From Bacillota bacterium (GTDB lineage Bacteria; Bacillota; Dethiobacteria; DTU022; PWGO01), in NCBI GenBank assembly GCA_012518215.1, contig JAAYSV010000043.1, positions 1 to 58,353 on the forward strand: a DNA stretch of 58,353 nucleotides. Direction: 5' to 3'. The notes beneath the pieces are model-generated. The model was given only the letters and a program-made list of their open reading frames with translations, made no database searches and was not told the DNA's origin. How positions within the stretch are numbered: the first letter of the stretch is position 1; the number at the start of each line of letters is the position of its first letter. The translations under genes were made by a program, and so were the position numbers. Positions 11,465-38,771 of this stretch are shown piece by piece.

Positions 11465-11893
11465 TCAACCGCGCCTCCGCCTGCCCCTGAATCGATCTTT
11501 CCTCCATTTACCGCTGAGTACCTCTCCGTCCGGTAGTGTCATCGTACCTTCTCCATGAAACAGCCCATCCTTGAATCCCCCGATGTACCTGTAACCTTCC
11601 GGCAGAAAGAAAATCCCTTCTCCATGAAATCTGTCTTTCCTCCACTGCCCGATATACGATTGACCGGTAGAAGTTCCAAGCGTTCCATACCCATTTGCCT
11701 CGTTTCCTTTCCATTCCCCTGCCAGGTACGATCCATGCCCCCAATAAAATACACCCTGCCCATGCATCTGCCCATCCTCCCAGTCCCCCGAATAAACGCT
11801 TCCATTTTCAAAAGTGATGGTCCCTTTACCATGGGGCACCCCATTCCGCAATTCACCCCTGTATTCTGCTTTGCCCACCAATATATCAATCAT
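11465..11893 (-). CDS. MORN-repeat protein
   Basis: A 142-residue protein made almost wholly of five to six MORN repeats of about 23 residues, each with a Y/F-x-G-x-W/F ... G-x-G pattern (for example Y-S-G-D-W-E-D-G-Q-M-H-G-Q-G). There is no signal peptide or extra domain. It ends in an arginine-rich tail. MORN repeats form a flat beta-ladder and usually mediate membrane-lipid or protein contacts; the bacterial role is mostly unknown. The gene is monocistronic and convergent with the aldo-keto reductase. Confidence 0.85.
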   Translation of the reverse strand: MIDILVGKAEYRGELRNGVPHGKGTITFENGSVYSGDWEDGQMHGQGVFYWGHGSYLAGEWKGNEANGYGTLGTSTGQSYIGQWRKDRFHGEGIFFLPEGYRYIGGFKDGLFHGEGTMTLPDGEVLSGKWRKDRFRGRRRRG

Positions 11894-12084
11894 TTTTGCA
11901 CCACCCCTGCATATTTACCTGTTGCCACTGCGCCCTTATTCATTGATACGAAAATATCATTATCATTATGCCATGATTCGTTGACTGTCCATGTATAATA
12001 CAAAGTTCTGATGAATCACCATTCAATCAAGAACAAGTAGTGTTCCGTTGACCCTCTTTCCTTTCCACGGCGGTGATCTTTTAT

Positions 12085-12120
12085 AAAAAAAGCCCCTCCC
12101 GGAGAAAAAAAAGGGAGGGG
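12085..12120 (-). terminator. Rho-independent terminator of the candidate small RNA
   Basis: An 8-bp G/C stem (CCCCTCCC with GGGAGGGG, 12093-12100 and 12113-12120) with a T-rich loop is followed on the minus strand by C and seven T residues (12085-12092). Confidence 0.8.
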
Positions 12121-12174
12121 ATTAGAGGGTTTGCAAGGTAGGAAATTGTAAAAAAGGGGGAAAATCCTACCTTG
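12085..12174 (-). ncRNA. Candidate small RNA of about 90 nt with a pyrimidine-rich loop
   Basis: The minus strand shows a complete transcription unit with no reading frame. A promoter at 12180-12209 places the start at about 12174. There a perfect 10-bp stem begins (CAAGGTAGGA with TCCTACCTTG, 12134-12143 and 12165-12174) closing a 21-nt loop with the run TTTTCCCCCTTTTTT. A 14-nt C-rich linker leads to the intrinsic terminator at 12085-12120. The C-rich loop could pair with G-rich Shine-Dalgarno sequences, as in known UCCC-loop small RNAs of Gram-positives; that is inference. It matches no RNA family I recognise, and 90 nt is too short for 6S RNA or tmRNA. Confidence 0.5.
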
Positions 12175-12179
12175 AATTC

Positions 12180-12209
12180 ATTATAGTGACAATCTTCCAT
12201 CATTCACAA
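12180..12209 (-). promoter_or_regulatory. Promoter of the candidate small RNA
   Basis: TTGTGA (12204-12209) and a perfect TATAAT (12180-12185) are separated by 18 nt on the minus strand. The predicted start falls at the first base of the hairpin stem. Confidence 0.5.
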
Positions 12210-12425
12210 CCCCTTAAAAGAAGCTTCGTGACAGCATGTTGTCAGTATGTTATGCTGAAAATTTTATAATATCCTGGAATCTGTAAAACCTGCAAGATGC
12301 CATTCAAGGGAAAAGGAAATTGTTTGCCGGGGTATTTCACTGTGACACCATAATTGCCATATGTCACATTCGCTTGTACCATGGCTTGCACGTGAAATAT
12401 ACGAGCTGAAAGCAAGAATATCGTG
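12210..12425. other. Intergenic stretch downstream of the CPBP protease gene
   Basis: Besides the small-RNA unit to its left, I see no gene or terminator here. The protease transcript may read into the small-RNA terminator about 300 nt downstream. Confidence 0.4.
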
Positions 12426-13244
12426 TTAGAAGGTCAAAGAAGTTGCTGTCATATTCCTGTGAATATAGTTGAAGGTTATCAGAGCAAGGACAACAACCCC
12501 CATAGCCCCCAGGGTCAGCCAGGCAGGTTGAAACAGAGCCCCGTCATTGAACCCGGGGATACAAAAAAAATGATTGCCCAGAACAGCCGTGGCATTGTTG
12601 ACTGCGTGAGCAAAGATGACCGCCATCAGGGATCCTGTCCTGTAAAATATATATCCCAGAAGAAGCCCGGCAAAGAAAGCAGGAATCATCTGCCAGACAT
12701 TGATGTGCATGGCCGCAAAGAGAAGTGATGATAGGATGATGGAGGCCCATGGAGTATAGCGCTTCAGGAATCCCCGCAGGATGATACCCCGAAAAACTAT
12801 CTCTTCCAGAATCGGAGGGATAACCGCGACCCCCGGCAAGATAATCCAGATATCGGCCAGGTATATGCTGGAGAACACCTCTTCCCACATATCTGTTACC
12901 GGATAAACAAACCTGACACAGTTGTCGATCTCCGAAAGTACAAAAGACAATCCCACGAACATGGGGATAAACAGCGGATACAAAAACCATGCGGTTCTCC
13001 CCGGGCCCCGAAGACCCTTGCAACTGTAACCGGAACGCCAGCAGTAAAAGGAGATGATTATCAGCCCCACGCCGGAGGGCAGGAGAAATAAATTTAAAAA
13101 CAACATGGAAGATGAACTTTGGTTCACACCCATGTATGCTCCCCAGAAACCAACAAGCAATCCCCCTAGCGATTGGAGAATGACCAGAAAGATACTGATA
13201 CCAACACCCTGAAGAAAAGACGGGTAAGCAGTCTGCTTTACCAT
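12426..13244 (-). CDS. CPBP-family intramembrane metalloprotease (CAAX protease-like)
   Basis: A polytopic protein of 272 residues from ATG 13244; a TTG at 13337 overlapping the upstream stop would extend it to 303. It carries the three CPBP signatures in order: EEIVFRG, F-x-x-x-H in FAAMH, and H-A-V-N-N, whose Glu and His residues form the metalloprotease site within the membrane. Bacterial members include bacteriocin self-immunity proteins and processing proteases, so a precise substrate cannot be assigned. It follows the Tic20-like membrane-protein gene in the same direction, probably as one transcript. Confidence 0.85.
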   Translation of the reverse strand: MVKQTAYPSFLQGVGISIFLVILQSLGGLLVGFWGAYMGVNQSSSSMLFLNLFLLPSGVGLIIISFYCWRSGYSCKGLRGPGRTAWFLYPLFIPMFVGLSFVLSEIDNCVRFVYPVTDMWEEVFSSIYLADIWIILPGVAVIPPILEEIVFRGIILRGFLKRYTPWASIILSSLLFAAMHINVWQMIPAFFAGLLLGYIFYRTGSLMAVIFAHAVNNATAVLGNHFFCIPGFNDGALFQPAWLTLGAMGVVVLALITFNYIHRNMTATSLTF

Positions 13245-13333
13245 CGGAAGATCTGTCCCCCTCACTGTTGTTACCCTGGAACGCATTTCATGACAAAGGT
13301 GGAAAAGGCGACCCTGAAGTGAATTGAAGGCGG

Positions 13334-13765
13334 TCAATCTTTGGATCGGAATTTCTGGGAAATCACCCGTTCTTCGGCCAGATCGCCGATGATGGGCAGT
13401 TTAAATGCTTCCCCCTGGCCAGCCTTGAAAACAAAGATAACCAGGACCAACAATGCCAGATAGAAAAGGATAATAAGCAGCCAATCAAGAAATTTCAAGA
13501 GGATCAGGAACCCCGCGTAATTCCACAATTCCAGAGCCACTGTCAAATGGTCTATACCGGCCAGGATCAAAAATAGGACAGTGAAGGTTCCAAATGTCAT
13601 TACCGACTGCATGGCATGGAATCGAATAAATTTGTTTTTCTTCTCCACAAGAAGAATTATGGCCCCGGAGATCCAGCCAAGCAAATAACTGACTACCCCC
13701 CAGAAGCGCTCCCTGGAACCGATTTTTTCCGCCTGATCATTGCCTTGCATCAATAAAATGTTCAC
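13334..13765 (-). CDS. DUF4870/Tic20-like small membrane protein
   Basis: A 143-residue protein with three to four hydrophobic segments. The N-terminal part contains the family landmark S-Y-L-L-G-W-I-S-G followed by V-E-K-K-N-K-F-I-R-F-H-A-M-Q-S, typical of DUF4870 proteins related to the Tic20 fold. The function of the bacterial family is unknown. The start is GTG 13765, close behind AAAGGGCGG. It precedes the CPBP protease gene with essentially no gap. Confidence 0.8.
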   Translation of the reverse strand: MNILLMQGNDQAEKIGSRERFWGVVSYLLGWISGAIILLVEKKNKFIRFHAMQSVMTFGTFTVLFLILAGIDHLTVALELWNYAGFLILLKFLDWLLIILFYLALLVLVIFVFKAGQGEAFKLPIIGDLAEERVISQKFRSKD

Positions 13766-14005: not shown

Positions 14006-14652
14006 TATCGCAGGTCAGGGATCCTTTCCAACAGTTCTTCAATCCTTGCTCTGCTTTCTTCCTGGCCCATATCAAGTTCGTTTCCACTTAAATCAACATA
14101 TTCCAGCAGGGGGAATATGTTTGTTGCAAGAACAGAAATGTCTGCAATTTCATTGCTCGACAGATCCACCCATCGCAGCGATTTGTTGTTGCTCAAAAGC
14201 GAAATGTCAACGATGTTGTTACCATCAAGTTTCAGATCTTCAAGATATGGCAAACTGCTCAGCGGAGTAATATCGATGATGTTGTTGTTTGAAAGGTGCA
14301 ATCTGTACACGGCCGTCAGATTGCCAAGGGGTACAAGGTCAGTGATCCGGTTACTGCAAAGACGCAGATCAACCAGATTCACGGCATACTCCAACCCCCT
14401 GAGATCTTCAATTCCCTTGTTCTCCGCAATCAGGTCAACCAGCTGTTCCATGTCGGCGACGGTAAGTAGTTCACCATGGCTCTTCCCGAGTTCTTCCCGG
14501 ATAGCGGCCTCCAGATTGATGTCGGGAATATAGAAATCGGCGGCCGGGAGCCGCCTGTCATGCACCTCTGTATGCTCGGGGCTGCACCCGTACAGGCAGT
14601 AGCCAGCCATCAGCAATGAAAACAGACAGATACAGGCAGTCGCTTTTTTCAT
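14002..14652 (-). CDS. Leucine-rich-repeat lipoprotein
   Basis: A 216-residue protein with a lipoprotein signal: MKKA, a hydrophobic core and the lipobox L-Y-G-C, predicting lipidation near Cys23. A short linker leads to a helical cap with D-I-N-L-E-A-A-I-R-E-E-L, then about five 22-residue leucine-rich repeats of the SDS22/internalin type (L-x-x-L-x-L-x-x-N-x-I-x-D-I). These proteins sit on the outer face of the membrane and bind proteins. The partner here is unknown. The start follows a long G-run ribosome site (GGAAGGGGGG). Confidence 0.9.
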   Translation of the reverse strand: MKKATACICLFSLLMAGYCLYGCSPEHTEVHDRRLPAADFYIPDINLEAAIREELGKSHGELLTVADMEQLVDLIAENKGIEDLRGLEYAVNLVDLRLCSNRITDLVPLGNLTAVYRLHLSNNNIIDITPLSSLPYLEDLKLDGNNIVDISLLSNNKSLRWVDLSSNEIADISVLATNIFPLLEYVDLSGNELDMGQEESRARIEELLERIPDLRY

Positions 14653-14741
14653 GGTCCATCGCCCCCCTTCCCAGGTTTACAGATATATATTCCCCAACCT
14701 TGTTGTTCTATGTCTACAAGCAGAGAATGCCCCTGGAAAAG

Positions 14742-14781
14742 GCCCCGCCACTTTTCAATGCAACATGAAAAGTGGCGGGGC
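14742..14781 (-). terminator. Strong hairpin terminator after the beta-galactosidase gene
   Basis: A perfect 16-bp inverted repeat (14742-14757 with 14766-14781) encloses an 8-nt loop, just beyond the lacZ-type stop codon. The T-tract on the minus strand is short (TTTT), so termination may be partial. Confidence 0.65.
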
Positions 14782-36038: not shown

Positions 36039-36116
36039 AGCAATTGGCAAAGGCGAGAGAAAATTATAGAGGGACCTTCCTCTGTCTTTGGCATTTTGAA
36101 TAGGAGGAATCAACTA

Positions 36117-37725
36117 ATGAAAGATATTATGGAAGCTCTTATGAAAAAGGAGGAACTAATACCTGACGAGCACGATGGGAGTTATGAATTGGTCAGGGAA
36201 ACAGTAAAAGCATTGTCAACTGTAACTGTTGATAATTTAAAAGTCGAAGATTTGAATTTACTATATTTTTCCACAGTAGGAACTTTCCGCAGGTCTTATA
36301 AGCATAAGAAGTTATGTATAAATAACAGCAGTTTAAGTACCTTTGAAAAAGAAAGACTTCATGGGATACTAAAAAGAATTAGGGAAAAAGCAAATAATGG
36401 TGACTATAGTAGTCACGGCAAATCAGATCACATGGGCATGTTCGGCACAGGTATAGGCAAATTACGAGTAAGCGAAGAAAATAGCAAAAAGTTTATCAAA
36501 CTATGTATTGATATTTTGGCTATGGATGATGAAGATAGTATAATAAACACTGCTGAACCTCTTCTGAAAAGTTATATGAAGGGATTGGGCGTTGCATCCA
36601 TAAGCCAGATATTACATTGCTTGAAACCGTATGTATTCCCTATTCTAAATAATGGAACAGGTTGGGGCATAGAAGCATATAAAAACTTAGGTATCAAATT
36701 GATTAAACCCAAGGAAACGATTCATTACATAGAGAATACCAAGAGAATAAAAAAGTTTAGAGATGAAAACTTTAAATTTAAAAACTATAGAATATTTGAT
36801 ATGTTTTTTGATAATTATTCCCCCCCTCCCCCCCCTCTACCAGTTAAGGGAAAAGACCCTTACACAAAGGAGATGTTTCTGGAAGAAGCTTTTATTGATA
36901 AGAGAAAATGTGAAGAGATTCGATACAGCCTAGATGCAAAGAAAAATATAATCTTGCAAGGACCACCTGGAACAGGAAAAACATTTGTTGCAAAAAGAAT
37001 AGCCTATTTATCTATGGGATGTAAAGATAACGATAAAATTGAAATGGTACAATTCCATCAAAGTTATTCTTATGAAGATTTTGTGCAAGGGGTCAGACTT
37101 GCAGAAAATGGATCATTTGAGCTTAAGAATGGTATTTTTTATAATTTTTGCAAAAAAGCAAAAGAAGATCATAAATCAAATTATTTCTTTATAATTGATG
37201 AAATCAATAGGGGAAATTTGAGTAAGATTTTTGGGCGAATTGTTGATGCTACTCGAATCAGACAAAAGAGGTGAAGAATACGGGATGCCATTGATTTATT
37301 CAAGGGAAGAAAGATTTTATATTCCTGAAAATGTTTTTTTAATAGGGACAATGAATACTGCTGACAGATCTTTGGCGATGGTAGATTACGCTCTCAGAAG
37401 AAGATTTAGATTTATCTATATGGAACCCGCATTTAACTCGGAAAAATTTAAAAAACACTTGAACAACAATAACATTGAAGAAGGGATTATTGATAAAATT
37501 GTTACGGGATTCAATAGGCTTAACACCAAGATAAAAGATGACTCAAAAGATTTGGGGAAAGGTTATGAGATTGGACATAGTTATTTTTGCACCGAACGTT
37601 TACCTGATGAAAGCTCCGAAGATTGGTATAAACGGATCATATACCTAGAGATAAAACCTTTGCTTCACGAGTATTGGTTTGATGATGAAGAAACTGCAGA
37701 AAATGAAACAGAAAATCTATTATGA
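36117..37725 (+). pseudogene. mcrB: McrB-like AAA+ GTPase subunit of a type IV restriction system, split by a frameshift
   Basis: ATG 36117 follows AGGAGG. The first frame runs to a stop at 37274; the second, from about 37231 to 37725, continues the same protein. Joined they give about 536 residues: an N-terminal region of about 245 residues of unknown recognition specificity, a proline-rich linker, then the McrB AAA+ domain with G-P-P-G-T-G-K-T, Walker B F-F-I-I-D-E-I-N-R-G-N, the G-T-M-N-T-A-D-R-S motif and an arginine finger R-R-R-F-R-F. The break is in T5-G3-C at 37228-37236, where one extra base separates S-K-I-F-G from E-L-L-M-L-L-E. McrB uses GTP to move on DNA and activates the McrC nuclease at modified cytosines. 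The stop overlaps mcrC. It could be a true mutation, a sequencing error, or programmed. Confidence 0.85.
36820..36835 (+). repeat. C7-T-C8 homopolymer tract within mcrB
   Basis: Sixteen bases, all C but one, lie in otherwise AT-rich coding sequence and encode a Pro-rich linker between the N-terminal region and the AAA+ domain. Such tracts slip during replication and are typical of phase-variable genes. Confidence 0.85.
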
Positions 37726-38771
37726 GAAGTGATGGTATGGTAAATTTTATACCAATACAAAATATTTACTATATGCTGTGCTATGCTTGGAATGTATTGA
37801 AATATCAAGACATTGTTGAAGTTGATTCTTTGTATAGCAATAAAATAATGGATTTATTTGCTTTGATCCTAGAAAATGGTGTTAGTTACCTGATAAGAAG
37901 AGGGCTTTACAGGCAATATATAACTTTTGAGGAAGAAGAAAATATTATAAGAGGCAAGATTAATATCAATAAGTCCTTTAAAAGAAATTTATGGATAAAG
38001 AGAAAAATGTTTTGCGAATATGATGAACTAAACCACAATATCCTTCATAATAGAATTATAAAAACAACAATAAATTATTTATTATTATATGAAGATTTAG
38101 ATACAGGTTTAAAAAATGATTTAAAAAAAGTTCATAAATACTTTGAAGCCATAGACACGATAAAACTCAATAAAAGAATATTTAGAGAAGTACAAATCCA
38201 TAGGAATAATCGTTACTATTCTTTTATATTGGATATTTGTGAGCTTATATTCAATAACTTATTGGTTGATGAAAAATCTGGTACTGTAAAATTTAAAGAT
38301 TTTATTCGTGATGAAAGACAAATGAGATATTTGTTTGAAAACTTCGTTCGGAATTTTTATAAAAAAGAATTGGCGAATGTAAGGATTTACAGGGAAAATA
38401 TAAAGTGGGATGTAAAAGATGGTGCAGGGATGGAATATTTGCCTATAATGCAGACGGACATTTCTTTAGAAATCAAAGATAAAAAACTTATAATTGATAC
38501 AAAATATAAAATATCTGCATTTTCCTATAATTATAATGCAAAAAAGCTTCATTCAGAAAACTTATATCAACTTTTTTCTTATATAAAAAATATTCAAGGA
38601 AAAGGTGGCATAGACGAAAAGTGTATTGGTATTTTGCTTTATCCTAGGACAGGCGAAGATTTAGACTTAGAATACTTGATTCAAGGACAAATTATTAGAA
38701 TCAAAACTATTAATCTAGGCCTTGAATGGAGACAAATTCATAAAAGACTAACAGAGATTGCTATGGAATAA
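37722..38771 (+). CDS. mcrC: McrC-like nuclease subunit of a type IV restriction system
   Basis: A 349-residue protein starting at ATG 37722 in an ATGA overlap with the end of mcrB, which implies coupled translation. The N-terminal part has the McrC family I-P-I-Q-N-I-Y-Y-M-L-C-Y-A-W-N motif. The C-terminal PD-(D/E)xK nuclease is visible as M-Q-T-D-I-S-L, then L-I-I-D-T-K-Y-K. It also has the conserved D-E-R-Q-M-R-Y-L-F-E-N-F-V segment. McrC cuts DNA when bound to a GTP-charged McrB ring. The frame is intact, although its partner is broken. No methyltransferase is near, as expected for a type IV system that attacks modified DNA. Confidence 0.9.
   Translation: MRSDGMVNFIPIQNIYYMLCYAWNVLKYQDIVEVDSLYSNKIMDLFALILENGVSYLIRRGLYRQYITFEEEENIIRGKININKSFKRNLWIKRKMFCEYDELNHNILHNRIIKTTINYLLLYEDLDTGLKNDLKKVHKYFEAIDTIKLNKRIFREVQIHRNNRYYSFILDICELIFNNLLVDEKSGTVKFKDFIRDERQMRYLFENFVRNFYKKELANVRIYRENIKWDVKDGAGMEYLPIMQTDISLEIKDKKLIIDTKYKISAFSYNYNAKKLHSENLYQLFSYIKNIQGKGGIDEKCIGILLYPRTGEDLDLEYLIQGQIIRIKTINLGLEWRQIHKRLTEIAME

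Follow-up and report, generated by a model that had tools for sequence, protein, structure and literature searches.

A candidate small RNA gene with C/U-rich unpaired regions in a poorly sampled clostridial lineage

The window analyzed here, 58,353 nucleotides of DNA from a Bacillota bacterium (GCA_012518215.1), is one whole contig (C43, JAAYSV010000043.1) of the 61 that make up a 2.14-Mb genome. The best named match of the rpoA of this genome is a Syntrophomonadaceae metagenome-assembled genome (MAG), at 67% identity. The element under study is intergenic and lies on the minus strand between two genes of the same strand, a CPBP (Rce1-like) protease gene upstream (12426-13337) and a MORN-repeat gene downstream (11465-11893).

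The element opens with a promoter-like site, TTGTGA-18-TATAAT (12180..12209, minus), with 10/12 matches (4/6 in the first hexamer and 6/6 in the second). A start placed 7 nt past the -10 hexamer and an end at the U-run give a predicted transcript of ~89 nt (12085..12173, minus). At its 5′ end is a hairpin (12134..12174, minus) with a perfect 10-bp stem, CAAGGTAGGA/TCCTACCTTG, whose arms (12174-12165 and 12143-12134) are 100% complementary (10/10 paired, with a basal C-G pair) and are separated by a 21-nt loop, UUUUCCCCCUUUUUUACAAUU, composed of 12 U, 6 C, 3 A, and zero G. The C-rich linker CAAACCCUCUAAU (12121..12133, minus) forms a second C/U-rich site, with a predicted pairing probability near zero, and is followed by an intrinsic terminator (12086..12120, minus) in which an 8-bp stem, CCCCUCCC-12 nt-GGGAGGGG, precedes C and U7. 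The terminator loop, UUUUUUUUCUCC, is the third C/U-rich site, and all three are predicted to be accessible. These ~46 unpaired bases (21, 13, and 12 nt) contain 0 G with the 10-bp stem and 1 G if the start is 12173. Read along the minus strand, the order is TTGTGA, 18 nt, TATAAT, 6 nt, then AAGGTAGGA TTTTCCCCCTTTTTTACAATT TCCTACCTT, followed by GCAAACCCTCTAAT, CCCCTCCC TTTTTTTTCTCC GGGAGGGG, C, and T7.

An initial annotation, made from the letters of the window, had described a minus-strand promoter, a perfect 10-bp hairpin, a 21-nt loop of almost only U and C, a C-rich linker, and a strong terminator, all of which are present as described. It put the start on the stem's first base, which is correct within 1-2 nt, the predicted position (~12173) being the second base. 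Its statement that no reading frame is present does not hold: an ATG open reading frame of 40 codons (12081..12203, minus), with the Shine-Dalgarno sequence AAGGGG 6 nt ahead of the ATG, spans the element, beginning ~30 nt before the predicted transcript and crossing both the hairpin and the terminator. The order and spacing of the predicted promoter, 5′ hairpin, and terminator fit a small RNA gene, and the general properties of such genes, namely a promoter of their own, a length of ~50-300 nt, an intrinsic terminator, and an intergenic position, are all predicted here.

Taken as 92 nt, the predicted RNA folds at -30.3 kcal/mol (z -5.4); the 89-nt version, whose start at 12173 is the likelier one, folds at -27.9 kcal/mol (z -4.1); with either choice of 5′ end, none of the shuffled sequences was as stable. 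The first hairpin alone reaches -13.6 kcal/mol (z -4.9), and the opposite strand gives a z of just -2.4 and has no U-run.

To gauge how rare the arrangement is, both strands of 858 kb of the 2.14-Mb genome were scanned for strict promoters (at least 10/12 matches), promoter-terminator pairs spaced 40-160 nt apart, and perfect stems of at least 8 bp beginning 3-12 nt past the -10 hexamer. The scan yielded 258 promoter-like and 97 terminator-like sites. Pairs of the two occur at chance level (2 seen vs. 1.75 expected), so the case is carried by the hairpin. The triple of promoter, early hairpin, and terminator was found once, as the element itself, against 0.008 expected, a count that was made with the element already known and is thus a measure of rarity rather than a formal test. 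With a loose promoter, 0.29 triples are expected in 858 kb. Contiguous 46-mers that lack G amount to 0.006% in the same 858 kb. The joint arrangement of promoter, hairpin, and terminator is well beyond chance in its host genome.

Searches for relatives recovered the element alone. In blastn searches of 100 related genomes and 16 further genomes reached via rpoA, a set that includes two genomes of the same family and none of the same genus, the only match to the element was itself, other matches being just T-run, C-run, or terminator fragments. The exact stem occurred only as its own copy in 200 genomes. A covariance model, R1, built from the single sequence of the element, found nothing convincing beyond the element in 98 genomes; its weaker matches, with per-genome E values from 0.006 upward, are terminators or overlap coding frames, and most of them lack the first stem. 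By blastn and covariance model alike, the element is single-copy in its own genome. Plasmids and phages contained no homolog, and the 31 stems of the exact pattern in viral contigs, approximately the number expected by chance, included none with a comparable U/C loop. No synteny emerged when the contigs of related genomes were scanned for the neighboring genes, which is uninformative because the best relatives of the CPBP gene are only 34-37% identical and none is close. Nothing in Rfam matched at the gathering threshold, including riboswitches and leaders; at a low threshold LhrC, PyrR, and others appeared, all far below the cut-off. With no homolog in ~100-215 relatives, Rfam, plasmids, or phages, there is neither covariation nor any sign that pairing is under selection, and a small RNA gene cannot be proved from sequence. 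Missing homologs are nevertheless expected for small RNAs at such distances and are not evidence against a gene.

Among the readings considered, the best is a single-copy, lineage-specific small RNA gene encoding an ~89-nt RNA that pairs with Shine-Dalgarno regions, to which we assign a probability of roughly one half (0.52). What the analysis shows is the sequence features, the predicted fold, the rarity of the arrangement, and an hfq gene; that the RNA is transcribed, where its ends lie, that it pairs in trans, and its targets and regulation are inferred, as follows. RNA polymerase would begin a minus-strand transcript near 12173 and end it at the terminator, yielding an ~89-nt RNA in which an open linker joins a 5′ hairpin of 9-10 bp to the terminator hairpin. 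Its three unpaired stretches (loop, linker, and terminator loop), all C/U-rich and without G, would on that account pair with the G-rich Shine-Dalgarno regions of mRNAs, blocking translation; an orphan small RNA of this composition would probably act by blocking ribosome sites. Hfq, which is encoded in the genome (111.9 bits), may assist, and the U7 tail would suit it. Such an RNA is plausibly an ordinary regulator of a known kind. Were it transcribed, this uncultured and poorly sampled clostridial lineage would gain a C-rich RNA that blocks ribosome sites, a further case of the design beyond the model Bacillota that changes no concept.

The main rival is that the element belongs to the CPBP-protease transcript as its 3′ untranslated region, with no working promoter of its own and a hairpin that stabilizes the 3′ end or is accidental; in a variant of this explanation, a small RNA is released by processing. 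The element lies on the same strand ~300 nt past the CPBP stop codon, and no other terminator-like site occurs on the minus strand between 12426 and the element, so its terminator may also end the 12426-13337 gene. The chance frequency of promoter-terminator pairs at this spacing also speaks for a 3′ untranslated region, as does the estimate, from the scan counts, that ~0.2-0.6 stems of 9-10 bp are expected within 60 nt of one of the 97 terminators, which makes such a stem not very rare. What counts against this explanation is the perfect TATAAT -10 hexamer, which places the start on the first bases of the stem and brings the joint expectation down to 0.008 or less. A 3′ untranslated region is rated unlikely, at about half the weight of the small RNA gene.

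The terminator also lies ~190 nt ahead of the MORN start codon on the same strand, and no clear promoter of its own was seen for that gene between 12085 and 11893, as would suit a MORN-repeat leader (gene at 11893-11465, minus) that works as a transcription attenuator, its terminator being opened by a signal. An attenuator requires an alternative structure, and the RNA ahead of the 3′ arm of the terminator contains just 4-5 G; the best competing helix, between the 5′ arm of the hairpin and the 5′ arm of the terminator, reaches -7.5 kcal/mol vs. -12.5 kcal/mol for the stem, and no convincing mutually exclusive antiterminator was found. The scarcity of G and the weakness of the competing helix make an attenuator less likely than a 3′ untranslated region, and the lack of an Rfam riboswitch or leader at the cut-off adds to its improbability. 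Somewhat less probable again is a chance arrangement without function, which would sit well with the element having been spotted by a reader seeking such features and with its lack of visible conservation, and less well with a joint arrangement that is unique in 858 kb, a fold z of -5.4, and a strand-asymmetric lack of G in the unpaired parts.

The 40-codon frame is probably spurious, a by-product of the pyrimidine-rich strand. It has no Pfam match and no convincing match in relatives, where weak ones (E 0.005 and above) fall within long frames; where such a locus was inspected, the long protein resembles, by eye, an adenine deaminase or amidohydrolase. That it encodes a real small protein, with the hairpin and terminator as by-products of its sequence, is the least probable explanation of all, since despite the AAGGGG 6 nt before its ATG and 40 open codons the frame reads through the terminator, chance stop codons are scarce in a pyrimidine-rich strand, and its only matches in relatives are those weak ones.

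C-rich hairpin loops are known from small RNAs such as mycobacterial B11 and Xanthomonas sX13, which differ from the element in belonging to other phyla and to which the Rfam search gave no sequence relation. Within the Bacillota, the staphylococcal and bacillary RNAs RsaE/RoxS, FsrA, and IsrR, with their UCCC motifs, likewise direct unpaired C-rich motifs at Shine-Dalgarno sites (PMC4132741), although their arrangement and sequence differ from those of the element and none matched at the Rfam cut-off. The closest likeness is to LhrC of Listeria, whose proven mechanism uses three C/U-rich sites, in the loop, linker, and terminator, any one of which can bind the lapB ribosome site, itself rich in G (PMC4132741). 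Like LhrC, the element has a U/C-rich 5′ hairpin loop, a single-stranded C/U linker, and a C/U-rich terminator loop, as judged by sequence and predicted accessibility, and both are G-poor, LhrC blocking G-rich Shine-Dalgarno sites (PMC4132741). LhrC acts on lapB without needing Hfq. LhrC (RF00616) was also the best sub-threshold Rfam match on the minus strand by bits: a search of 541 bases gave it 23.5 bits (E 0.32), far from the gathering score of 110; in a whole-genome search its model did not recover the locus and scored best elsewhere, at 17.2 bits. The element is not LhrC: membership in RF00616 is rejected on the 23.5 bits vs. 110 and on its single copy, LhrC having five near-identical copies in Listeria, and sequence and host also differ. 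By analogy of design, it may nonetheless work as LhrC does.

Two genes, 526 and the lipoprotein gene at 14652, had been suggested as targets in the initial annotation, from G-runs before their starts. The runs are real (AAGAGGGGGG and AAGGGGGG, respectively), and predicted duplexes with the loop reach -17.6 kcal/mol for 526 and -18.0 kcal/mol for 14652. Neither gene is supported as a specific target: GGGGG just upstream of a start is common, occurring before 58/393 predicted genes (15%), with GGGG before 121/393; moreover, the lipoprotein gene ranks 13th among the 393 starts, and no shared function links it to 526. Target prediction with the loop, proposed in the same annotation, was run on these 393 starts, which come from a simple ORF picker and include some wrong starts, and gave 70 below -14 kcal/mol vs. 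43 ± 17 for shuffled loops, ~1.6 standard deviations, with none singled out. The loop is thus weakly better than its shuffled versions at pairing with gene starts, and the modeled duplexes suggest that it can pair with many ribosome sites, with no single target standing out. Of the small RNA with targets that was first proposed, the small RNA gene stands as the best reading, given the joint arrangement beyond chance and the G-free, C/U-rich unpaired parts, whereas the targets are not supported as specific.

Upstream of the promoter, at positions of ~-56 to -71 relative to the predicted start, lies an imperfect palindrome, TGACAACATGCTGTCA (12229..12244, both strands), a candidate operator. The genome has one further identical copy of the 16-mer, flanked by a Cas3-like helicase gene and a PIG-L gene (C55:9640-9655), and copies with one mismatch occur at two places (C3:54863 and C8:25914); all four copies are intergenic. 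The palindrome may be an operator or a short repeat. Induction of lhrC5 requires the region upstream of -53, which parallels the position of TGACAACATGCTGTCA, a parallel and not evidence. A more ambitious proposal, that a lineage-specific RNA arrived independently at the LhrC design, with three redundant anti-Shine-Dalgarno sites, and is switched by a regulator binding TGACAACATGCTGTCA as an operator in common with the Cas3-like helicase locus, tying a global translational repressor to a defense or stress regulon, is highly improbable, ranking between a chance arrangement and a small protein. The palindrome is also overlapped by a plus-strand promoter-like site (12228-12256), GTGACA-17-TATGCT, whose second hexamer is preceded by TG; transcription from this site would run antisense into the CPBP gene.

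Elsewhere in the window, a McrB-like AAA gene is seemingly split (36096-37725, plus): the frame 36096-37274 breaks off mid-domain, the rest of the domain is read in a different frame at 37231-37725, and McrC comes next at 37722-38771, so that the split gene is either frameshifted or mis-assembled. Just past a beta-galactosidase gene, at 14700-14770 on the minus strand, a long G+C-rich hairpin, CCCCGCCACTTTTCA...TGAAAAGTGGCGGGG, is followed by CC and four T and is an ordinary strong terminator.
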